The translations under genes were made by a program, and so were the position numbers. Below, piece after piece: positions 26,822-59,132 of a DNA stretch of 62,813 nucleotides (position 1 is its first letter; every line of letters starts with the position of its first letter). The DNA comes from Candidatus Geothermarchaeota archaeon. GTDB lineage: Archaea; Thermoproteota; Nitrososphaeria; Geothermarchaeales; JDFR-13. Location: the NCBI GenBank assembly GCA_015523545.1, contig WAKB01000003.1:1-62813 (forward strand), in the 5' to 3' direction. The notes beneath the pieces were generated by a model. It worked only from the letters and a program-made list of their open reading frames with translations, was not told the DNA's origin and did no database searches.

Positions 26822-27379
26822 ATGAGGTTGGGGGTTACTGGTACGCCGGGTACTGGTAAGACCACGATATCTAGGCTGCTTGGCGAGGCTCTGGGGCTTC
26901 CAGTCATCCATCTCGACGACATTATCATTGGGGAGGGGCTTGTCAAGGGGTTTGACGAGAGGCGTGGGAGCCTCGTGGCAGATGTGGAGAGGGTTACTGA
27001 GTCTGCCCCTAGGCTGGTCAGTATCGATGGTGTGTATGAGGGCTTATCAATAATCTATATCGAGGATCCCAGTGTCTTTGACAGGGTTGTCGTCCTTAGG
27101 TGTAGCCCATACGTGTTGGAGGAGCGGCTCAGGGCGAAGGGCTTCCCCGAGGAGAAGGTTAGGGAGAATGTTGAGGCTGAGATACTGGATATAGTCTATT
27201 CGGAGGCCCTCAGGATATATGGTGAGAAGGTCCTCCAGGTGGATAATACTGGGGATCCCAGGGAGGCTGTGGAGAGGATCATAGGTAAGATGGGTAGGGA
27301 AGGCTCTAGGTGTGACTCTGTGGACTGGCTGGGCCTGATATATGAGAGGGGTGATTTTCAACGCTTCTTCCGTGGCTAG
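26822..27379 (+). CDS. AK6/Fap7-type adenylate kinase
   Basis: Small P-loop NMP kinase, 185 residues. The P-loop GVTGTPGTGKTTISRLL is at the N terminus, HLDDIIIGEGLVKGFDERRGS is characteristic of the AK6/Fap7 group, and VLRCSPYVLEERLRAKGFPEEKVRENVEAE matches its LID and helix region. Eukaryotic Fap7 acts in maturation of the small ribosomal subunit with Rps14; archaeal homologs are thought to do the same. It overlaps the converging HerA-type gene by 4 bases. Confidence 0.85.
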   Translation: MRLGVTGTPGTGKTTISRLLGEALGLPVIHLDDIIIGEGLVKGFDERRGSLVADVERVTESAPRLVSIDGVYEGLSIIYIEDPSVFDRVVVLRCSPYVLEERLRAKGFPEEKVRENVEAEILDIVYSEALRIYGEKVLQVDNTGDPREAVERIIGKMGREGSRCDSVDWLGLIYERGDFQRFFRG

Positions 27380-28872
27380 ACATTAGGCTCTATCCTGACT
27401 GGGAATGGTAGTGGGTTCCTACTATCCTTGACTAGTGCCTCTCCCACTCCGAGCTGCTTAACATACTCTATCTGCTCCTCATTCATTGAGACGATGTTCC
27501 TGATGTATGTCAGGTCCTCCCACCCGGTTAGGCGGTGGATTATTACTAGCCCAGCGTTCTTCAGTGGGGCCTTCGCTATCTGGGAGGGGAACTGGGTTAT
27601 TATCGCTATCGCCTCGCCAAACTTACGTATCTCATCCATTATCTTCTCCGCCACTGTCGGTGGATCGTATTCTCTACGGGTTGGTATTAGGTAGCGGGCC
27701 TCCTCCAGGACTGTTACATGGCTTAGGCCCTTCATACCGCTCAGCCTCTGGTGGTTGAAGAGCCTCTTTAGGAGTATATATCCAAATATCTTCCTGAGGT
27801 TGACCTCGTGTATATGTCCAAGCTCTATCACCGTGTTCCTCTGGACTATGTCCTCTATCTTAATGGTCTCCCCCTGCCCGAATATCTTGGCTCCCTGGCC
27901 CGCCACGAGTTGTTTCAGCCTCCTAAGTAGGGCTGCCTTGGTCTCATGCTCGCTATAGGACTTTATGGGGAACTGTTCAATGATGCTTATCAATGCCCTT
28001 ATGTTGGGCTCCTTCTCACCTACGAGGTGGTATCTCGAGTATGTGGCCTCGAGGGCCATCTTGAAGAAGTATTGCTGTGGATGGGTGAATCCGTAGACCT
28101 CGCTGAATATGTCTGTGATTATGGATGCGCTGTCCTCTATGTCCCCCTCATCCTTTATGGGGTTGAGCACCGCCTCACCTAGCCCGGGCCTTATAACTAG
28201 GTCTACGTTCTTGAGCTTCGATGTATACTCGTTATGGTAGTCTAGGACTAAGTATGGGGTGTCCCTTGGGAGCTGGTTGAGTATAGTGGCTATCGTGGTG
28301 GTCTTGCCCATCCCTGTGGAGCCTATACATGCTATGTGGCTGGATAGCTGGTCTATGGGTATTAGGTAGTCCTCACCCGTGTCTACTAGTCTGCCCAGCC
28401 TTATAGTAGCCCTCCCAGGCCTGCTCTGAACGGGTAGTTTGAATAGTCCCCTAGGCTTCACCAGCTGTAGGTCTCCCCCCGACTCGAATCTTATGTAGTG
28501 TTCTCCCCTACCGCCGTTCCTCAGTCTCCACCTATATATCGTCGATATCTCTCCGTCGCCAACCAGCTCTACCTCGTAGTCGGGGAATGCTGTTAGGACT
28601 ATGTTCCTTATTGCCTGTGCCTTTGTGAGGGCGGCCTCCCTAGACTCTCCCCTGGTGACTATGTATAGGCCTTCATGCCTCCCGTCTACATAGTGTATTA
28701 TCTGTACAGGTATGTGGAGGTTCTTGAAGGCCTTGATCATGTTCCTGTAGGCGGTGACGTGTTGATAGGCCTTCACCCTCCCCTCATCTATCTCCGGGCT
28801 GCTCCCCAGTATCTTGACACCAGCCATATACTCCCTCTTCGACCCGTTTAGCCTAGGGATTAGCCTCTTCAT
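27376..28872 (-). CDS. HerA/VirB4-type ATPase of a secretion or DNA-transfer locus
   Basis: A 498-residue FtsK/HerA-superfamily ATPase. Walker A is IGSTGMGKTTT near residue 183, Walker B is VTVLEEARYLIPTRREYD near residue 385, and AIIDEIRKFGEAIAIITQFPSQ-like sequence (here KIMDEIRKFGEAIAIITQFP) carries the sensor region. The N-terminal 150 residues resemble the VirB4/CedB-type N domain. In crenarchaea, HerA/VirB4 ATPases of this kind power the Ced/Ted DNA-import systems. Here it is the last gene of a minus-strand operon with a mini-pilin, two half-size membrane proteins and a VirB11/PilB-type ATPase, so I infer a pilus-linked transport motor, not chromosome-repair HerA; no NurA, Mre11 or Rad50 gene is adjacent. 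Confidence 0.8.
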   Translation of the reverse strand: MKRLIPRLNGSKREYMAGVKILGSSPEIDEGRVKAYQHVTAYRNMIKAFKNLHIPVQIIHYVDGRHEGLYIVTRGESREAALTKAQAIRNIVLTAFPDYEVELVGDGEISTIYRWRLRNGGRGEHYIRFESGGDLQLVKPRGLFKLPVQSRPGRATIRLGRLVDTGEDYLIPIDQLSSHIACIGSTGMGKTTTIATILNQLPRDTPYLVLDYHNEYTSKLKNVDLVIRPGLGEAVLNPIKDEGDIEDSASIITDIFSEVYGFTHPQQYFFKMALEATYSRYHLVGEKEPNIRALISIIEQFPIKSYSEHETKAALLRRLKQLVAGQGAKIFGQGETIKIEDIVQRNTVIELGHIHEVNLRKIFGYILLKRLFNHQRLSGMKGLSHVTVLEEARYLIPTRREYDPPTVAEKIMDEIRKFGEAIAIITQFPSQIAKAPLKNAGLVIIHRLTGWEDLTYIRNIVSMNEEQIEYVKQLGVGEALVKDSRNPLPFPVRIEPNV

Positions 28873-28886
28873 CTATCCCTTCCCCT

Positions 28887-29066
28887 CTATAGGAATGGGA
28901 ATAGCGTGTCCCACCACCACTGTACGGCGTCGAAGAAGGCTTGGATAGCCTCTTGGATCTTCTCATAGATCATGTTGGCTGCCCCCATGGCTATCCCGAT
29001 CCCTAGTAGGGCTACTATGATCAGTAGGCCCTCCTCGATGATCTGTGCTCCACGCCTCCTCCTCAT
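28887..29066 (-). CDS. Flp-like mini prepilin, 59 residues
   Basis: The frame reads MRRRRG, then AQIIEEGLLIIVALLG, one hydrophobic helix, and an aromatic amphipathic end (QWWWDTLFPFL). Arg-rich leader, Gly at -1 and Glu at +5 of the mature protein exactly fit the type IV prepilin rule for Flp/Tad pilins and archaeal class III signal peptides. One membrane helix followed by only about 25 residues is the size of a Flp pilin. It lies 14 bases before the HerA/VirB4 gene and about 70 bases after the membrane-protein gene at 29140. The Ced pilin, as I recall it, has two helices and no such leader, so this is a different type. Confidence 0.75.
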   Translation of the reverse strand: MRRRRGAQIIEEGLLIIVALLGIGIAMGAANMIYEKIQEAIQAFFDAVQWWWDTLFPFL

Positions 29067-29139
29067 GGTGCATCCCCATCCATTAGGGGTTGTGGCAGTG
29101 TTAAAGGTGGTGGAGAGGGTTGTGAAACTATTCCCCCTA

Positions 29140-29646
29140 CTATCCGAGTAGTGGTCTTGTGAATCCGGTGCCTAGGATAGCTGCGAATGTGTAAATCACT
29201 ATGTTTCTGAGTAGGCTCCTCCTGTCTGGGCCGTGGAAGATCCATGTGATGAGTGCTGTCTGTAGTAGGCCGAAGAGCCTGTAGATCAGGGTGTCTGCCC
29301 CTCCAAATGTTATTAATAGGTTCTCGGTTATCGTTATCCCGCTGATAACTTCTAGGATGGGTATCGTCGCCCCGAGTGTGAAGGCTGCTGTGGCTGATAG
29401 TATGGATAGCCTCCTTATTATCTGCCGCTCCTTGTTCCTCAGCCTCCCTAGGAACTTCTCCTGGAGTATAACAGTCTTTGTGTAGTTGCGTATAACCTCG
29501 GCCCTCCTAGATATTGCCTCTAGATCGGTCTCCACGTCCCGACCCCTGATATAGTTTCTCAGCCTCTCTAGTTCCCCCTCCTCGTAAAGAGCTCTTGCCA
29601 CTGAGTTACCCTTGAGTATCTTGTCTAGTATCTCTATCAGCCCCAT
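29140..29646 (-). CDS. Half-size platform-like membrane protein (TadC/T2SF-like)
   Basis: A 168-residue protein with a cytoplasmic helical region (residues about 1-75, SVARALYEEGELERLRNYI and RNYTKTVILQEKFLGRLRNKE) followed by three hydrophobic segments near residues 80-100, 110-132 and 143-160. The order, a short helical bundle then membrane helices, resembles one half of the T2SF fold found in GspF, TadB/TadC and archaeal FlaJ platforms. I infer it is one of two subunits of a split platform; sequence similarity is weak by eye. It starts immediately after the stop of the gene at 29647, with no gap. Confidence 0.55.
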   Translation of the reverse strand: MGLIEILDKILKGNSVARALYEEGELERLRNYIRGRDVETDLEAISRRAEVIRNYTKTVILQEKFLGRLRNKERQIIRRLSILSATAAFTLGATIPILEVISGITITENLLITFGGADTLIYRLFGLLQTALITWIFHGPDRRSLLRNIVIYTFAAILGTGFTRPLLG

Positions 29647-30114
29647 CTACCTAGCCACCCTTGTCAGTATCTTTGCTAGTAGGGCCTGGAGTATGGGTAT
29701 TGGTAGGAGTATCCAGGGGCCTAGTGGGATCGTGGCTATTAGTGCTAGGAGGGGTGGGAACACTGTTACGGCGCTTATGAGTGCTGCCTTGACGTCTAGG
29801 TTCTCCACCTCCCTCTCCAGCCTGTCTATCTCTAGCTCTATGTCTGATGCCGTTGTCTCAACAGCTATCTCTGGGTCTCCAGGGACCTCGGCCCCACCTA
29901 CTCTGTCTATATCCTCGAAAAGGAGGTTCTTCTCCAGGTCTCCCCTGGATATTAGGGCAGCCCTGAGTGGGCTTCCCGAGACTATGTATTCGGATAGCTC
30001 CATGAACCTTGTGGCTATTCCCGAGCCATCTATGGCCTCCCATACCCCTCTGCCTATGGTTAGTGCCGCTGCTATGTGGCTGAGTATGAGGAGGATTATT
30101 AGTACTGTCTCCAT
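29647..30114 (-). CDS. Half-size platform-like membrane protein (TadB/T2SF-like)
   Basis: A 155-residue protein. An N-terminal membrane helix (residues about 2-22) precedes a helical soluble region with RFMELSEYIVSGSPLRAAL, reminiscent of the T2SF pattern around a small-residue G.pl..aL motif, then an acidic coiled stretch (EIDRLEREVENL) and two membrane segments near residues 108-150. With the gene at 29140 it may form a split TadB/TadC-type platform. It overlaps the upstream ATPase by 16 nt. An alternative is a novel inner-membrane component unrelated to T2SF. Confidence 0.55.
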   Translation of the reverse strand: METVLIILLILSHIAAALTIGRGVWEAIDGSGIATRFMELSEYIVSGSPLRAALISRGDLEKNLLFEDIDRVGGAEVPGDPEIAVETTASDIELEIDRLEREVENLDVKAALISAVTVFPPLLALIATIPLGPWILLPIPILQALLAKILTRVAR

Positions 30115-31295
30115 GCTACTAACCCCTCCTCCAGCTCTTCTGAGAGGTAGATGTCTCTGAGGTATCTCCTGCCTGTGGGGAGGTCTCTAGCGGTTATTAG
30201 TACTAGGCCCACCTGTTTCAATGCGGCTTCGTATCCCTCTCCGAAGCCCCTCCCAAGCCTCATTATGAGGCTCTCTATGTCGCTGGCGTGTATCGTGGCC
30301 ATGATCCTTATACCCATGAGTAGGGTCTCTAGCATGTGTTGGATATCGTTGTTTGTTATGACCTCACCATATACTACGTAGTCTGGACTCCTCCTCAGGT
30401 TGAATAGCGTCTGTATCCCTCTCTTCTCAGACTCCACTATCCCCGACTGTCTATAGTAGATGTGGTGGTAGCCATGTGGCCTGAGATCCTCTGTCTCCCT
30501 AGCCTCTTCCAGTATGAGTATCCTGAGGTGTCCCGGCAGTTCCTTTAGTATGGCGTTGAGGAGTGTCGTCTTCCCGCTGTTGGGCTCGCCCATAATGAGT
30601 ATTGATGGATATCTCCTGAGCTGCTCCTGTATGGTGATCCTCTGCTCCTCGTCCATGAAGCCCCTCTCAACTAGGCCCTCCAGGGTGTTACCGCTCCCCA
30701 TGTGCCTCCTTATGACGGCGTATGTCTCTCCATGGGTTAGTGGGAATGTGTCGAGGACTATTCTGAACCTATCCCTGACTGTTGATATGTCGGCCTCTAT
30801 CGAGCCTCCCCTCCTCGATACTCCCTCGGCAACTATTAGCTCGAGGATGCGTCTCAGGGCTGTTAGGCCCTCCTCCCCAATATACATGTTTGTTTTGTAG
30901 CTTGCACCGTCCATCCTCCTAACCCTGATCTCATTGTCGCCTCCGAGTATGTAGATCTCCTGGTTCTCGGGGTCTGTCATCAGTATGTGGAGGGGGAGGA
31001 GGCCTATTGAGTCCCAGAAGGCTATCTCTCCCATCTCTTCATTAGTATTTTCAGGGCCATCCAGCCTCTCCAATGCCTCGTGGATGTTCCTCCTGAGGAT
31101 CTCCTCTAGGGTGGGGTATCTGCTCAGCCCCCTGAATACTGGTAATTCCCTAGATAGTTCCTGGATATGTGGAGATGCCTCAAGGATCTCTGGGGTGAAG
31201 CCGTAGTATAGTGTTCCACCCCTCCTTGTGAGGGCTATATACCTGGTTATCCTAGCCTCCCACTCCTCGAGGATAGGTATGGAGCCAAGCCTCAT
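30099..31295 (-). CDS. VirB11/PilB-type secretion ATPase
   Basis: A 398-residue hexameric-type secretion NTPase that should power pilus assembly or secretion from the cytoplasmic side. Walker A is MGEPNSGKTTLLNAIL near residue 237, the Asp box is ILEEARETEDL, Walker B is SPDYVVYGEVITN near residue 310, and the His box is IMATIHASDIESLIMRL near residue 340. It is shorter and differs in sequence from the pilus ATPase at 56222, so the organism has at least two systems. It is the first gene of the five-gene minus-strand operon. Confidence 0.85.
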   Translation of the reverse strand: MRLGSIPILEEWEARITRYIALTRRGGTLYYGFTPEILEASPHIQELSRELPVFRGLSRYPTLEEILRRNIHEALERLDGPENTNEEMGEIAFWDSIGLLPLHILMTDPENQEIYILGGDNEIRVRRMDGASYKTNMYIGEEGLTALRRILELIVAEGVSRRGGSIEADISTVRDRFRIVLDTFPLTHGETYAVIRRHMGSGNTLEGLVERGFMDEEQRITIQEQLRRYPSILIMGEPNSGKTTLLNAILKELPGHLRILILEEARETEDLRPHGYHHIYYRQSGIVESEKRGIQTLFNLRRSPDYVVYGEVITNNDIQHMLETLLMGIRIMATIHASDIESLIMRLGRGFGEGYEAALKQVGLVLITARDLPTGRRYLRDIYLSEELEEGLVAWRQY

Positions 31296-31325
31296 CCCGA
31301 GTAGGGATTGGCCCGGAGGAGTGGT

Positions 31326-31362
31326 AATAAATTATTTTCACTCATCATATCCCGGTTATAAG
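31326..31362. promoter_or_regulatory. Divergent promoter pair of the secretion locus
   Basis: On the minus strand AATAATTTATT (31326-31336) lies about 30-40 bases before the ATPase start at 31295. On the plus strand GTTATAAG (31355-31362) predicts a transcript start at about 31387, exactly the ATG of the first small membrane protein, so that mRNA may be leaderless. One 91-base gap therefore drives both arms of the locus. Confidence 0.5.
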
Positions 31363-31386
31363 CCGTTGTAGAGCGGTATTAACGGG

Positions 31387-31512
31387 ATGAATAGGGTTCT
31401 GAGACTGTTTGGAGATACTGCTTTGAAGGCTCTGATGCTAGGCCTAGTTATACTGGGCTTTCTCCACCTGGCGGGGGTGGTTAGGGATTGGATAGGTATG
31501 CTGCGACCCTAA
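31387..31512 (+). CDS. Tiny membrane protein, 41 residues
   Basis: The frame gives an N-terminal MNRVLRLFGDTALKALM, one membrane helix (LGLVILGFLHLAGVV) and a short basic end DWIGMLRP. No family is recognised. It is the first gene of the plus-strand arm divergent from the secretion operon, with a predicted leaderless start. It overlaps the next frame by 25 nt. Coding status rests on the open frame, promoter position and tight packing with similar genes. Confidence 0.5.
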   Translation: MNRVLRLFGDTALKALMLGLVILGFLHLAGVVRDWIGMLRP

Positions 31513-31670
31513 TACTCGAGGTTGTATTGGTGGTTGTGCTGTCGGGGATCGCATTGGTGATCGGTGATCGTGTACTGGAGATTCTCGGCGTGGCTGTCTG
31601 TAGGCCTGAGGAGGTTGTTGTGGATAGGGGTCTATACTACGTTGTGTATAGGGTGGGTATGAGGTGTTAG
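31488..31670 (+). CDS. Small membrane protein, about 60 residues
   Basis: One long hydrophobic helix (TLILEVVLVVVLSGIALVIG, residues about 8-27) and a short C-terminal domain with two cysteines (VCRPEEVVVDRGLYYVVYRV, ending MRC). Glu at the start of the helix (LILEVV) is pilin-like, but there is no clear leader before it. The start is uncertain: TTG 31488 is the best available. It is co-oriented and overlapping with both neighbours. Confidence 0.5.
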   Translation: MDRYAATLILEVVLVVVLSGIALVIGDRVLEILGVAVCRPEEVVVDRGLYYVVYRVGMRC

Positions 31671-31783
31671 ACGACTTTATAGATACCCTGTTGAGCATTG
31701 CTCTAGCCGGGATATTTCTCCTGGTTCTCTCCCTATTGGCCCTCGTCCTTCTTCTCCTCATTGGGGTGTTGCTTGGTGCTTAG
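31664..31783 (+). CDS. Tiny membrane protein, 39 residues
   Basis: From GTG 31664 the frame encodes MLDDFIDTLLSIALAGIF then a highly hydrophobic helix of Leu, Val and Ala to the stop. It is almost entirely a single membrane span with an acidic N terminus. Both ends overlap the adjacent frames by 7-8 bases, as expected for translationally coupled genes. Function is unknown. Confidence 0.45.
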   Translation: MLDDFIDTLLSIALAGIFLLVLSLLALVLLLLIGVLLGA

Positions 31784-32042
31784 TAGGATCTTGGCACTCG
31801 TCGTGGGTGTCTCGGTACTGGTTATGAGTATTGGGGGGTTCATCCTCCTCCTGGTAGATTATCTCTCCTTCAGACCTGTTCTCGACCCTTGTGAGGAGTT
31901 GTTGGCTGATGTTGGTCTGGGTAGAGTGGGTGTGGATGGTGTATGGATTGAGGATGGTCTAATACATGTCTCTACAGGGGGCTCAGTGGTGATCGTCTCT
32001 CCTGATGGGAGGGTGGTTGGATGCGGAGGGCTGGATACCTAG
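31776..32042 (+). CDS. Single-pass membrane protein with small outer domain
   Basis: From GTG 31776 it has 88 residues. Residues about 3-30 (RILALVVGVSVLVMSIGGFI) form a membrane helix. The rest is a small domain with two cysteines (DPCEELLADVG and VVGCGGLDT) and short beta-like repeats (VWIEDGLIHVSTGGSVVIVS). Size and layout resemble a minor pilin without a canonical leader. It overlaps the next gene by 22 nt. Confidence 0.55.
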   Translation: MLSRILALVVGVSVLVMSIGGFILLLVDYLSFRPVLDPCEELLADVGLGRVGVDGVWIEDGLIHVSTGGSVVIVSPDGRVVGCGGLDT

Positions 32043-32503
32043 GTATCTATCTCGCAATATTCATCGTTGTGGCTGTATTCATGGCTGCTACGATCTTCAT
32101 CCTATATAGTGTGGATCCCACTGCTAGGGGGTATGACGAGTATGCCGTCGATGTTGTCGGGGTCTATGCGGCTATGGAGTGTCTAGGTATTGATGGGTAT
32201 AGGCCGCCCTACGGTGATGCCGAGTCGTATGTCGAGGATGGCATGATCGTTGTCGAGGTCAGGGTTGGCCAGTATAGATATGTTGGATATGTGGATCTCT
32301 ATAGCCAGAACTGTAGGCTTCTTAGGAACTACTCTATGGCCTCGGGCTTATCTGTAGCTGTGGAGTCTTCAGGCTGCTCCTCCTGGATTATCCCTGTCTT
32401 GATTGCTAGGTATCTCTCTAGGGGGTCTAGGATCTCCTCGTTATCCCCATACTCCGCCTCCTCATCCTGTGACCTGGTAACTAGTTTATGGACCTTTCTA
32501 TAG
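32021..32503 (+). CDS. Pseudopilin-like membrane protein
   Basis: Up to 160 residues from ATG 32021. The N terminus MRRAGYLGIYLAIFIVVAVF has a short basic leader followed by a membrane helix, like a minor pilin, then a small domain with two cysteines (MECLGIDGYRPPYGD and SQNCRLLRNY). Beyond about residue 105 the frame runs antisense to the gene at 32329-32778 and turns Ser-rich, which looks like non-genuine sequence. A frameshift or a missed stop near 32330 may explain this; the real protein may be about 105-110 residues. Confidence 0.5.
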   Translation: MRRAGYLGIYLAIFIVVAVFMAATIFILYSVDPTARGYDEYAVDVVGVYAAMECLGIDGYRPPYGDAESYVEDGMIVVEVRVGQYRYVGYVDLYSQNCRLLRNYSMASGLSVAVESSGCSSWIIPVLIARYLSRGSRISSLSPYSASSSCDLVTSLWTFL

Positions 32504-32778
32504 CTTACCCTCTTACCCAGCTCCCTGTCCAGCCTCTCGATGAGCTCCTTCACCGAGACTATCTCGCCGTTCTTCTTTAGGACTAGGTATGTCGCCGCTA
32601 TTAGGACCTCGTATCTAGTTGGGCTCAGTCCTCGCCTCTCCAGCTTCACCACATACTCCTTGATCTCCCTACCCCACCTCTCTGATATCCCTAGTGCCCT
32701 TAGTAGCCTTGTGATGTTGTCGAGCCTGTGGTCAACCAGACTATTCCCTAGCATCTCCACCACCCTGTAGCTCCCCAT
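32329..32778 (-). CDS. Cyclin-fold protein resembling a TFB core repeat
   Basis: A 149-residue protein. Its centre, LGISERWGREIKEYVVKL then GLSPTRYEVLIAATYLVLKKNG and VSVKELIERLDRELGKRVSYRKVHKLV, fits the pattern of one cyclin repeat of transcription factor B, where helices read out an IY.....G.s....aAa.ly.a.r pattern. It lacks the N-terminal zinc ribbon and a second repeat. The C-terminal 35 residues are acidic and probably disordered. It could be a divergent TFB-like regulator of the adjacent locus; this is inference. Confidence 0.5.
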   Translation of the reverse strand: MGSYRVVEMLGNSLVDHRLDNITRLLRALGISERWGREIKEYVVKLERRGLSPTRYEVLIAATYLVLKKNGEIVSVKELIERLDRELGKRVSYRKVHKLVTRSQDEEAEYGDNEEILDPLERYLAIKTGIIQEEQPEDSTATDKPEAIE

Positions 32779-32799: not shown

Positions 32800-32966
32800 A
32801 GAAGCCTCTAGCCATGGCTTGGCCTGAATACTTTCATCATGGGGGTGGGATAGATAATCCCCTACCTAGGGATGTGTGAATGTGATCATCGGGTCTCCGT
32901 ATCCCAGGCCTGTTTAAAATAGGCATGTATATAATTCTTTTTACATTCCTGTTAGGGTGTCCTCCT

Positions 32967-33395
32967 ATGATGCCTGCCAGCCCGCTTATGAGGGAGCTGG
33001 ATAAGTTCCTGAATAAGGAGGTTGTTGTGGAGCTGAGGGATGGGCGTAGGTTGAATGGTTTGTTGAGGGCTATTGATCCTAATACGCTTAATATGGTTCT
33101 TGGGAATGTGAGGATTGGTAGGGATGAGTATAGCCTCGTAATTATTGGTGGGGCTGATGTGAGGGCTGTCTTTCTGAGGGCTGTGAAGTTTGACCTGGCT
33201 GAGCTTGCTAGGCGTATAGAGAGGATCTTCCCGTCGCCGGGCATGGTGGTGTATAGGCCCTCGGAGAGGGCTATACTGGTTATGAATAGGGTGAGGGTTA
33301 CCCAGGAGGGGGTTGAGGGGGATAGGGGTGTTATCTATGAGAAGGTTAAGCAGGTCTTCGACGAGTATATGAGGGAGATTAGGGAGGGTGGCTAG
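32967..33395 (+). CDS. Sm-like archaeal protein with C-terminal domain (SmAP3 type)
   Basis: A 142-residue RNA-binding protein. The Sm1 motif reads LDKFLNKEVVVELRDGRRLNGLLRAIDPNTLNMVL and Sm2 is EYSLVIIGGADVRAVFL. Unlike simple SmAP1 (about 80 residues), it has an additional C-terminal domain of about 70 residues (GMVVYRPSERAILVMNRVRV), as in SmAP3 of Pyrobaculum. ATG 32967 follows the TATA box TTTAAAAT at 32913-32920, whose predicted start near 32942 excludes the longer reading frame from 32925. It converges with the PAC2 gene. Confidence 0.8.
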   Translation: MMPASPLMRELDKFLNKEVVVELRDGRRLNGLLRAIDPNTLNMVLGNVRIGRDEYSLVIIGGADVRAVFLRAVKFDLAELARRIERIFPSPGMVVYRPSERAILVMNRVRVTQEGVEGDRGVIYEKVKQVFDEYMREIREGG

Positions 33396-56209: not shown

Positions 56210-56221
56210 GGGGTGGAAGAC

Positions 56222-57568
56222 ATGATTCTGGATAGGTATAAGGTGGTAGCCAGCTATAGGGTGCCGTCCGGGAGGGAGTATAGGACCTACTTCATGGTTG
56301 AGATACATAGGGAGGGTGATAAGGGATACTACCTAGTCACTGAGCCCTATGAGGACCGCCTCATAGCAGAGGCCATGGATATACTCGCGAAGCTAGAGGA
56401 TATGATCGGCTATGACGAGTCTTTCTTCGAGGATCCCATGGACTACTTGATGGGGCTGTATAACGATCGATATGTGGAGGAGAGTGAAGATGGTGTATAT
56501 GCCCTCTCACTCAGGGGGGTTGTGGAGCATGTCATCATCAAGGAGGTGCTGGGCTACTCATACCTGACGCCCCTACTTGCTGATGAAGATGTGGAGGATG
56601 TCGTCCTCTCGGCTCCAAACACACCTATCCAGGTCTGGCATAGGCGCTACCCGGAGCTTGGGTGGATAGATACCAGTATAACGCCTGGTGAGGAGGAGGT
56701 TAACAGGATGGTTAGGCGCCTGGCGTTCAGGGCTGGTAAGACGATCAGTATCCTACAGCCAGTTATGGAGGGTATCCTCCCTGAGAGGTATAGGGTTACG
56801 GCAACATGGATGGGTGAGGTCTCCCCGAGGGGGAGTAGCTTCACGATAAGGAAGTTCCGCTGGAGCCCGCTTAGACTGTCCGACCTGGTTGCTAGCGGCT
56901 TCATACCTGGCTACCTAGCATCCTTCCTCCTCCAGATGATGCTTGATAAGGCCTTCATTATGATCATAGGCCCCTCTGGGAGTGGGAAGACCACCCTCCT
57001 CAACGCCCTACTCCTAGAGATACCTAGCAACAGGAGGGTCGTGACTGTTGAGGAGACGCCTGAGATAAACCTTATGGATAGACCAGGATGGAAGCCCCTC
57101 TCTACTAGGTGGGACGCGGATCCCGAGGCTGAGATGGAGCGTCTACTGAGAACTGTTCTTAGGGAGAGGGCAGACTATATAGCCGTCGGTGAGAGCCGTG
57201 GAAGGGAGGTGAGGCTCGTCTTTCAGGCAGCTGCCACTGGCCATGGATGCCTAACCACCTTCCACGCCTCGACACTTAGGGAGCTACAGTCCCGCCTAGT
57301 ATCAAGCCCGATAAAGCTTGACAGGGACGTCGCTGGCCTCCTCGACGTGGTGGTTGTCCTCGAGATTAATGGGGAGAGTAGGAGGTATGTGAAGGAGGTC
57401 TACCTCAGGAGAGATGAGAGGTGGCTCCTCCTATATAGTAGGGGGATGCCTAGGAAGAGGTTCTACGAGGCGATAGCGGAGATGTATCCCAAGGAGCTGG
57501 TGTCCAGGGTTGAGACTGGTGAGGAGCTGGTGGTGGGTGTGGATGGCTCTCAGGGAGAGGGTAGGTAG
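56222..57568 (+). CDS. Type IV pilus assembly ATPase (PilB/GspE-type)
   Basis: A 448-residue archaeal secretion ATPase. Walker A is IMIIGPSGSGKTTLLNALL near residue 248, the Asp box is VTVEETPEINL, Walker B is RADYIAVGESRGREV near residue 320, and the His box is TTFHASTLRELQSRL. ATG 56222 with GGGGGTGG upstream. It overlaps the platform gene by 26 nt. It is closer to AapE/FlaI-type ATPases than to the one at 30099. Confidence 0.9.
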   Translation: MILDRYKVVASYRVPSGREYRTYFMVEIHREGDKGYYLVTEPYEDRLIAEAMDILAKLEDMIGYDESFFEDPMDYLMGLYNDRYVEESEDGVYALSLRGVVEHVIIKEVLGYSYLTPLLADEDVEDVVLSAPNTPIQVWHRRYPELGWIDTSITPGEEEVNRMVRRLAFRAGKTISILQPVMEGILPERYRVTATWMGEVSPRGSSFTIRKFRWSPLRLSDLVASGFIPGYLASFLLQMMLDKAFIMIIGPSGSGKTTLLNALLLEIPSNRRVVTVEETPEINLMDRPGWKPLSTRWDADPEAEMERLLRTVLRERADYIAVGESRGREVRLVFQAAATGHGCLTTFHASTLRELQSRLVSSPIKLDRDVAGLLDVVVVLEINGESRRYVKEVYLRRDERWLLLYSRGMPRKRFYEAIAEMYPKELVSRVETGEELVVGVDGSQGEGR

Positions 57569-59132
57569 GCTCTCGAGGATATTCAGCTTTAGCAGTGATG
57601 AGAGGCTCTCCCGATTCCTGGCTATGGGGGTAGCCAGTAGGAGGGAGATGTACATACTAGGAGTAGTTATGATCCTATCGTCGGCAGCCTCTCTATTCAT
57701 AGTGCTGAGGACGCTTGGCGTCGACCCCCTATACTCGGGGATAGCCTCGCTCTCCCTATCTATCCTCCTTCTCCCCCTGCTGCCTAGGATGTATAGGTCG
57801 GTGGTTAGTGATGTCTATGGTAGGTGGCTGGCTAGGGAGGAGCCGATAACGCTCCTGGTATTCACGATATATTCTCGGAGGCTCTCCCTAGAGAGGATCC
57901 TACAGATGTTTGCCGAGGGCTATATAGGCAGGGTGATACCTAGGACCGCTAGGTTCTTCAGATACATACTCGCCCGTAGCTTCGTCTCACGTGAGACTGT
58001 TGACAACGTGTTATCCAGGTCTCTAGACCTAGTCCCCCATGATGGCCTCCGCCGCTATATCTTCAACTTTGTCAGGCTTCGCAGCGTTGGGGGTGATGTG
58101 TATAGCTACTCTAGCCAGGCATTGCTAGACCTTTACCAGGAGCTTAGGAGGAGGTGGATAGGGACGTGGTCATCGATGGCCGCATACCTCGAAGGTATAA
58201 TACTGATCTACGGACTCTTCCCAACGATCCTCTCCAGCCTAGTCTTCGTACTTGGCTATAGGAATACGATTACCGTCTTCACGGTCATGATGATCTTCTA
58301 CCCGATATTCACCTTCCTGGTCTACCTACTCTTCGATAGGTATAACGTGCATGATCCTATAGAGACTAGGCATGGCTTCTCAAGGATCTCCATGCTGATG
58401 CTAGCTGGATCCCCAGCCACTATATATCTGCTCTACAGGTATACCGGTGACATATTCCTATCCTCCTCACTCGTACTTGGCATGTCGCTCCTCCCAAGCT
58501 TCATCATACAGGCCAGGATGCTCTATAGGGAGGTTGAGGAGGAGGCGGGCCTACTAGCCCTATCAACCCAGATGGCCGACCTCATGGAGGGTGGGATGGG
58601 TGTTGTCGAGGCTATCAAGAGGATAGACCTGGGAGGTATACCTGAGCGGCTGGCGAGGGAGGTTAGGCGTATGAGGCATCTGCTGGACAAGGGGCTTGAG
58701 CCTAGGGATTATATGGAGGGTGGGAAGGCCTACCGGCTCTTCAGGATAGCCCTCTCAGAGTCGATGGCCTCTGGAGGAGGGGCCGTCGAGCTAGCCACTC
58801 TGAGGGAGCTTCTTAAGAGCTTCCTCGACGTGAGCCGTCTTAAGAGGGCTGCCTTCTACATCGCGTTGGCCTCCTCGATAGCCGTCCTCCTCCTAGGTGG
58901 GTACTCCCTCAGCATAGTATTTTCGATAATCACATCGGTTGAGGGGGATCTAGCCCACATCTTCATACCTGGCTCGATAGAGACTCTATACACCTATGCG
59001 AAGGCATTCCTCCTCATGGGGAGTATCTACATGGGCCTACTCCTAGGGAAGCTGATATTCGGGAGCTTCCGCAACGTACTGGCGTTGACACCCCTCTTAC
59101 TGACATCGGCGGCCGTCTACCTATTAATCTAA
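57543..59132 (+). CDS. Type IV pilus platform protein (TadC/FlaJ-like)
   Basis: A 529-residue integral membrane protein. Membrane segments are seen near residues 38-80 (ILGVVMILSSAASLFIVLRT), 230-290, and at the C terminus (IAVLLLGGYSLSIVFSIIT and LFIAL-like LLLTSAAVYLLI). Two T2SF-type cytoplasmic helical regions lie between them (LSLERILQMFAEGYIGRVIP; LSTQMADLMEGGMGVVEAIK). This is the full-size two-domain archaeal platform, in contrast to the half-size proteins at 29140-30114. ATG 57543 is the start. Confidence 0.88.
   Translation: MALRERVGRLSRIFSFSSDERLSRFLAMGVASRREMYILGVVMILSSAASLFIVLRTLGVDPLYSGIASLSLSILLLPLLPRMYRSVVSDVYGRWLAREEPITLLVFTIYSRRLSLERILQMFAEGYIGRVIPRTARFFRYILARSFVSRETVDNVLSRSLDLVPHDGLRRYIFNFVRLRSVGGDVYSYSSQALLDLYQELRRRWIGTWSSMAAYLEGIILIYGLFPTILSSLVFVLGYRNTITVFTVMMIFYPIFTFLVYLLFDRYNVHDPIETRHGFSRISMLMLAGSPATIYLLYRYTGDIFLSSSLVLGMSLLPSFIIQARMLYREVEEEAGLLALSTQMADLMEGGMGVVEAIKRIDLGGIPERLAREVRRMRHLLDKGLEPRDYMEGGKAYRLFRIALSESMASGGGAVELATLRELLKSFLDVSRLKRAAFYIALASSIAVLLLGGYSLSIVFSIITSVEGDLAHIFIPGSIETLYTYAKAFLLMGSIYMGLLLGKLIFGSFRNVLALTPLLLTSAAVYLLI

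Follow-up and report, generated by a model that had tools for sequence, protein, structure and literature searches.

A conserved, probable type IV pilus operon with a CedD-related ATPase is a candidate DNA uptake or exchange locus in Thermoproteota

Within a 62,813-nucleotide stretch of DNA from Candidatus Geothermarchaeota archaeon (contig WAKB01000003.1, positions 1-62,813, assembly GCA_015523545.1; the whole stretch is called the window below), we examined a divergent locus that places pilus genes beside the gene for a HerA-superfamily ATPase. The genome (G000) comprises 1.15 Mb in 17 contigs and is 90% complete. Five genes, encoding a VirB11-type ATPase, two half-size membrane proteins (mA and mB), a 59-residue prepilin and the HerA-type ATPase, make up a minus-strand operon (27376-31295), just as the initial annotation of this DNA had described. 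The VirB11-type and mA genes overlap by 16 bp, mA abuts mB with no gap, 73 bp separate mB from the prepilin gene, and 14 bp separate the prepilin gene from the HerA-type ATPase gene. Upstream, a divergent region measuring, as predicted, 91 bp leads to plus-strand open reading frames (ORFs) for small proteins with a single transmembrane (TM) segment (p1-p5; Table 1). We estimate a probability of roughly 60% that these genes specify a dedicated pilus machine of type IV (Tad/Epd-like) with its own DNA-translocating ATPase, most likely used for DNA uptake or exchange.

The initial annotation had called the HerA-type ATPase a conjugation-type ATPase. Its membership of the HerA superfamily stood (Pfam DUF87, 55.5 bits), but the best curated family was CedD (NF053655, 163.9 bits), ahead of HerA (61.9 bits) and CedB (33.5 bits). 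A locus member from elsewhere in the phylum aligned with CedD over its full length at 207 bits, close to the 223 bits obtained for a crenarchaeal CedD from the same chromosomal slot. An AlphaFold model (predicted local distance difference test score, pLDDT, of 84) has an alpha/beta N-domain followed by a DUF87/VirB4-type motor, and a fold search matched the motor to HerA (E 2e-19) and to the VirB4 C-domain. In a phylogeny of 71 proteins built with IQ-TREE, the locus ATPases and a group of short ORFs formed a clade (support 96) that was sister to a crenarchaeal CedD clade (98) of Sulfolobales and Desulfurococcales. The node joining the two had support of 93, with HerA and CedB outside it. One ATPase first labelled CedD (L101) was placed elsewhere in the tree and was excluded from the CedD clade. 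Judged by these sequence comparisons, the protein is CedD-related and not a generic conjugation ATPase. When G000 was queried with the CedD profile, this was the only HerA-superfamily ATPase seen, though two pilus operons are present. A search of further genome contigs with the CedD-like profile gave five mostly distant matches, dominated by the generic P-loop pattern.

The operon is widely conserved. Among 250 genomes sampled from the class, 27 encode a CedD-like ATPase (a match of at least 130 bits), and in 23 of the 27 a VirB11-type gene immediately precedes the ATPase gene in the same orientation; a contig end cuts the locus in the other four (G004, G011, G015 and G046). Five families (f1, f3, f5, f8 and f11) have a common layout: a TFB-like gene, the divergent arm p5-p4-p3-p2-p1, then VirB11-mA-mB-pilin-CedD-like, and an AdK-like NTPase gene. 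Since CedD-like proteins of the class families are only ~29-63% identical to the reference sequence, this arrangement appears to be old. Outside family f1 the proteins are mostly larger, with VirB11-type ATPases of 470-516 amino acids, mA of about 240, mB of about 210 and CedD-like ATPases of 520-600. A profile search with the ATPase also gave strong matches in other families of the phylum. The regions fetched contained the same locus in f22, f24, f34, f45, f47, f52, f58, f60 and f63, with no recognised divergent arm in f45; in f43 a contig end interrupts the locus, and in f23 the pilin and ATPase alone were recognised. An AdK-like NTPase gene adjoins the locus in nearly all relatives, and adjoins CedD in several crenarchaea. 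According to the initial annotation, finding that HerA-type and PilB-type genes are never neighbours elsewhere would have spoken against a joint system, but the two are adjacent in 14 families. Its proposal that pilus parts and the HerA-type ATPase belong to one system is supported to the extent that the two ATPases and the prepilin constitute a conserved operon and not a chance neighbourhood.

The f47 loci encode the CedD-like protein in two ORFs (L088:8040-8380; also L097). In L088 the break falls at a T8-A9 run ahead of Walker A, which could reflect slippage, fission or an assembly error. Three families of the sampled class have AmoA, but the genome of the window does not; the class is presumably GTDB Nitrososphaeria, and the window's lineage presumably one that does not oxidise ammonia. 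An origin of the locus in a mobile element was rejected, as conserved housekeeping genes flank it and it appears to have been inherited vertically.

Gene order ties the locus to crenarchaeal CedD a second time. We take some of the neighbouring genes to be rpoG, thermosome and TFB3 from our own reading of the sequences. In L089 the order is Lsm-rpoG-TFB-like-[pilus]-CedD-like-AdK-thermosome, and in L100 and L102 it is Lsm-rpoG-CedD-AdK-thermosome, without the pilus genes of the locus. CedD lies beside AdK and thermosome genes in L100, L102, L109 and L074 (Pyrolobus), with Lsm and/or rpoG on the opposite side. In several families an Lsm-like gene likewise forms the other flank of the pilus locus, and it also flanks crenarchaeal CedD. 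Because the flanks in L089 are the same and enclose a whole pilus locus, CedD of crenarchaea appears to be the gene left over from such a locus. Synteny supports the CedD relationship independently of the tree that found it. In Sulfolobaceae (L098 and L099), CedD adjoins the thermosome gene, followed by a short TFB-like gene (L098:4841-5464, L099:9729-10271) that is probably TFB3, with rpoG and Lsm nearby. Only the zinc ribbon of this short protein aligns with the TFB-like family, and its neighbourhood genes are those of the pilus locus. The idea that the TFB-like gene is a sequence orthologue of TFB3 was not adopted, given this restricted alignment and a better fit of general TFBs to the TFB-like profile; we keep it as a lead.

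Two further arrangements were seen in this comparison. In L105 (1894-8436) a divergent VirB11-type ATPase gene and a gene for a 6-TM protein lie close to a crenarchaeal CedD gene, and may belong to a system that was partly retained or to a separate one. In L114, L115 and L116, genes for large HerA-type ATPases (685-731 amino acids) directly follow a gene for a 4-5 TM protein, resembling CedA-CedB; these genomes also contain strong matches to the pilus-locus ATPase.

The other operon products resemble parts of a type IV pilus (T4P). The prepilin carries a class III signal (RRRRG↓AQIIEEGLL). Residues E11, E12 and L15 (E-E-x-x-L) are invariant in an alignment of 27 sequences, and E11 would become Glu5 after the predicted R-G/A cleavage (27/27). 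Pilins at the loci compared are about 59-87 residues long, and the prepilin profile matched only helical-bundle noise in PDB. The VirB11-type ATPase scores above the cut-off for Pfam T2SSE (57 bits), has the TadA family as its best NCBIfam match (63.5 bits) and contains the Walker A motif GEPNSGKT. By profile, mA and mB are related to each other (E 2.3e-6), and the best PDB match of mB is GspF (E 0.028); they are probable TadC/TadB-like halves of a pilus platform. Two f47 loci (L088 and L097) carry a Peptidase_A24 (type IV leader peptidase) gene in their divergent arm, at 29.3 and 42.5 bits against a cut-off of 26.5. No TadZ-type ParA/MinD gene was noticed among the locus ORFs, although no search aimed at TadZ was made.

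As the initial annotation had recognised, the window contains a separate, conventional pilus operon with prepilins, an ATPase (56213-57568) and a T2SSF-type protein (57510-59132). In the tree, its ATPase is not among the 39 locus VirB11-type ATPases, which cluster apart from conventional pilus ATPases with node support of only 52. Because the locus pilin has a class III prepilin signature, its pilus is best classed as T4P/Tad-Epd-like and not as a VirB2/CedA1 mating pilus; nor does this pilin show the VirB2 type found in Ted and VirB type IV secretion systems (T4SS). Of the hybrid pilus for DNA uptake, DNA transfer or protein export that had been envisaged, the conserved pilus/ATPase unit is supported, as a probable T4P of this kind that would more likely serve DNA uptake or exchange than protein export.

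The divergent arm is conserved mainly by position. All five plus-strand products reported in the window do have a single-TM ORF (beginning at 31387, 31488, 31664, 31776 and 32021), one of only 39 amino acids, but the last is conserved only over ~32021-32350. In the window p5 runs to 160 amino acids (32021-32503), with the extension at 32350-32503 antisense to a TFB-like remnant; in the sister genome G007 it ends at 109 amino acids, at a TGA where the window has TTA. Relatives have ORFs of 105-320 amino acids in this place, several with an R-R-G/A motif ahead of the TM segment. Outside family f1, p1 is longer (about 120-130 amino acids) and has a pilin-like N-terminus. The family f1 profile matches p2 at E 2.8e-4 (8-protein set), a TM-only ORF of 35-45 amino acids occupies the p3 place in most loci, and p4 has no significant sequence match to the ORFs at its conserved position.

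Beyond p5 lies the TFB-like remnant, which the initial annotation had overlooked. It retains one cyclin-like repeat, lacks a zinc ribbon and matches the family f1 TFB-like profile at 14.5 bits. Intact homologues have a zinc ribbon and two cyclin repeats, and most families have the gene next to the divergent arm (e.g., L058:1885-2811, L079:1567-2487). From its sequence, we regard it as clearly a TFB paralogue. In the divergent region of the window, and in L015 and L016, a weak ANTTTC-like element lies 21-23 nt upstream of a TATA-like box toward the plus-strand genes. Such a hexamer recalls the UV-inducible motif of Sulfolobus promoters. We do not claim a damage motif as a feature of the divergent promoter, as only three members, all of genus g1, showed the element.

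Table 1. Genes and other features of the pilus locus and its flanks, in window coordinates.
Feature	Coordinates	Strand	Basis
AdK-like NTPase (AAA_18), conserved flank	26822..27379	+	Pfam AAA_18, 63.9 bits
CedD-like HerA-superfamily ATPase, 498 aa	27376..28872	-	DUF87, CedD NF053655, tree, AlphaFold model
Short prepilin, 59 aa	28887..29066	-	27-sequence alignment
mB, half-size membrane protein, 168 aa, probable TadC/TadB-like platform half	29140..29646	-	Sub-threshold T2SSF
mA, half-size membrane protein, 155 aa, probable second platform half	29647..30114	-	Sub-threshold T2SSF, related to mB
VirB11/PilB/TadA-type pilus assembly ATPase, 398 aa	30099..31295	-	T2SSE, 57 bits
Divergent promoter region, 91 bp	31296..31386	.	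No ORF
p1, single-TM protein, 41 aa	31387..31512	+	Position conserved
p2, single-TM protein, 60 aa	31488..31670	+	Family f1 profile; position conserved
p3, TM-only protein, 39 aa	31664..31783	+	Similar ORF at this place in most loci
p4, single-TM protein, about 88-93 aa	31776..32042	+	Position conserved; start GTG 31776 or TTG 31761
p5, single-TM protein, minor-pilin-like N-terminus (MRRAG...)	32021..32350, ORF open to 32503	+	
TFB-like transcription factor gene remnant	32329..32778	-	TFB-like profile match
Lsm-like gene, conserved flank	32925..33395	+	Synteny in several families

What is known of DNA transfer in archaea bears on how this locus may be used. Saccharolobus islandicus requires CedD to import DNA but not to export it, and Ced works with cell contact made by Ups T4P (PMC11868833). 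In methanogens, whose DNA transporter is unknown, type IV-like pili are essential for natural transformation (PMC10133366). ComEC was found in 0 of 16 genomes tested (10 of 14 controls were positive). No CedB-grade match occurred in 13 pilus-locus genomes (at most 43 bits), while all three crenarchaeal comparison genomes gave CedB-type matches (264-857 bits), and the locus itself contains no recognisable candidate for CedA (VirB6-like) or CedA1 (VirB2-like). Since CedD is needed for DNA import, and ComEC and CedB-grade matches are absent from the genomes tested, the locus suggests itself as a candidate for taking up or exchanging DNA.

We infer pilus formation, DNA as the substrate, the direction of transfer and control by the TFB-like protein along the following lines. 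The VirB11/TadA-type ATPase would drive a two-part membrane platform of mA and mB, which would assemble, and perhaps retract, a thin pilus of the 59-residue prepilin. The divergently expressed single-TM proteins may prime or tip this pilus. Once the pilus touched DNA or a partner cell, the CedD-like protein, acting as a hexameric motor at the membrane, would pump DNA across, by analogy with the CedD that Sulfolobales need for DNA import. In most lineages the adjacent TFB-like factor probably controls the locus. Crenarchaeal CedD would descend from this locus, the pilus genes having been lost and the pump kept in its slot.

Several observations weigh against this reading. The window protein falls under the NF053655 equivalog cut-off (163.9 vs 600 bits, where a Sulfolobaceae CedD from L098 scores 737 bits), and its match is limited to the motor domain. 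The platform assignment is sub-threshold: T2SSF is the commonest Pfam match of both membrane protein families, reaching 4 of 20 members for mB (best 9.9e-5) and 3 of 20 for mA (best 5.3e-4), and a fold search with the mB model (pLDDT 82) gave nothing below E 3. No membrane channel was identified. The window copy itself looks reduced, at the low end of the size range, with short VirB11, mA and mB and a degenerate TFB-like gene. Finally, Peptidase_A24 was not found in G000, despite the two pilus operons; the missing prepilin peptidase either suggests that the locus is not fully functional in this genome or is explained by the tenth of the genome that is absent.

The alternative that survives best, which we nonetheless consider unlikely, is an ordinary adhesion or twitching pilus, with the CedD-like ATPase serving either as an additional motor in pilus dynamics or in DNA repair, unrelated to the pilus and merely transcribed with it. 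Archaeal T4P of known function are mostly adhesive. Since the housekeeping flanks (AdK, Lsm and thermosome) are also conserved, being neighbours is not in itself proof of a common function, and crenarchaeal CedD persists without these pilus genes and can therefore act separately. However, the CedD-like ATPase is the last operon gene in 14 families, close behind the pilin. Its nearest characterised relatives are DNA translocases, and the ATPases that retract pili are members of the PilT family, a different one.

Less probable still is a conjugation-type DNA exporter, or a bidirectional machine for cell-to-cell exchange that uses a T4P filament in a Ced/Ted-like way. The VirB4-like motor fold would suit such a machine, as would the partnership of Ced with Ups-mediated contact (PMC11868833). 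Yet the locus has neither a recognisable relaxase nor a recognisable VirB6 protein, its pilin is class III and not VirB2-like, CedB was not found in the 13 pilus-locus genomes, the locus sits between housekeeping genes and not in a mobile element, and CedD was needed for import but dispensable for export (PMC11868833). A protein secretion system energised by the HerA-type ATPase is very improbable: type II secretion systems (T2SS) and T4P have an ATPase, platform and pseudopilins in common and several locus products are single-TM proteins with extracytoplasmic domains, but no recurrent secreted effector family lies beside the loci compared, and HerA/CedD/VirB4 relatives mostly handle DNA.

The proposed pilus machine with its own DNA-translocating ATPase overlaps with several known systems. 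With Ced of Sulfolobales (CedA, A1, A2, B, D and E; PMC11868833) it shares a sister-group ATPase in the same chromosomal slot and, in Sulfolobaceae, the short TFB-like gene near CedD. It differs in having its ATPase inside a T4P operon with a class III pilin, and in lacking a CedB-grade match or a recognised CedA- or CedA1-type gene. The short major pilin, the TadA-type ATPase and, probably, the pair of half-size platform genes recur in Epd-like (EppA-dependent) pili of methanogens and bacterial Tad pili (PMC6668835), and methanogen type IV-like pili are needed for natural transformation (PMC10133366); the locus adds a CedD-like ATPase and a TFB-like gene, and its platform likeness is sub-threshold. 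Ups pili of Sulfolobales are T4P tied to DNA exchange with Ced and regulated by a TFB paralogue (TFB3), but they have their own operon without a HerA-type ATPase, the DNA pump being encoded elsewhere. Ted of Thermoproteales is an archaeal pilus with a HerA/VirB4-superfamily ATPase proposed for DNA transfer, but its pilin, TedC, resembles VirB2 and has a signal peptidase I site, its TedA resembles VirB6, and the VirB11-type ATPase present in the locus is not mentioned (PMC9905601). Bacterial competence pili (Com and Vibrio T4P) share the working principle of a pilus and DNA uptake; in place of ComEC, the proposed pump of the locus is the CedD-like ATPase.

In the open-licence papers searched, without their supplements, we found neither a type IV pilus locus reported to contain a HerA/CedD-type gene nor this locus presented as a Ced or Ted variant, a possibility that the initial annotation had raised; prior notice elsewhere is possible. 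CedD is described there only in PMC11868833, and a census of archaeal T4P mentions HerA only as a superfamily name (PMC4858521).

Tentatively, and with less confidence than in the machine itself, we suggest that the locus represents an ancestral Thermoproteota apparatus for DNA uptake or exchange, its pilus, pump and dedicated TFB being encoded together. Sulfolobales CedD, and possibly the damage regulator TFB3, would then be remnants left after Ups and CedA1 replaced the pilus. DNA uptake by archaea is mostly unexplained: methanogens with natural competence have no ComEC, and which transporter they use is not established. An operon coupling a pilus to a CedD-type pump in Thermoproteota other than Sulfolobales provides a concrete candidate that can be deleted. 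It would also explain the origin of CedD, and it predicts that Ced-type import and a T4P were once one machine.

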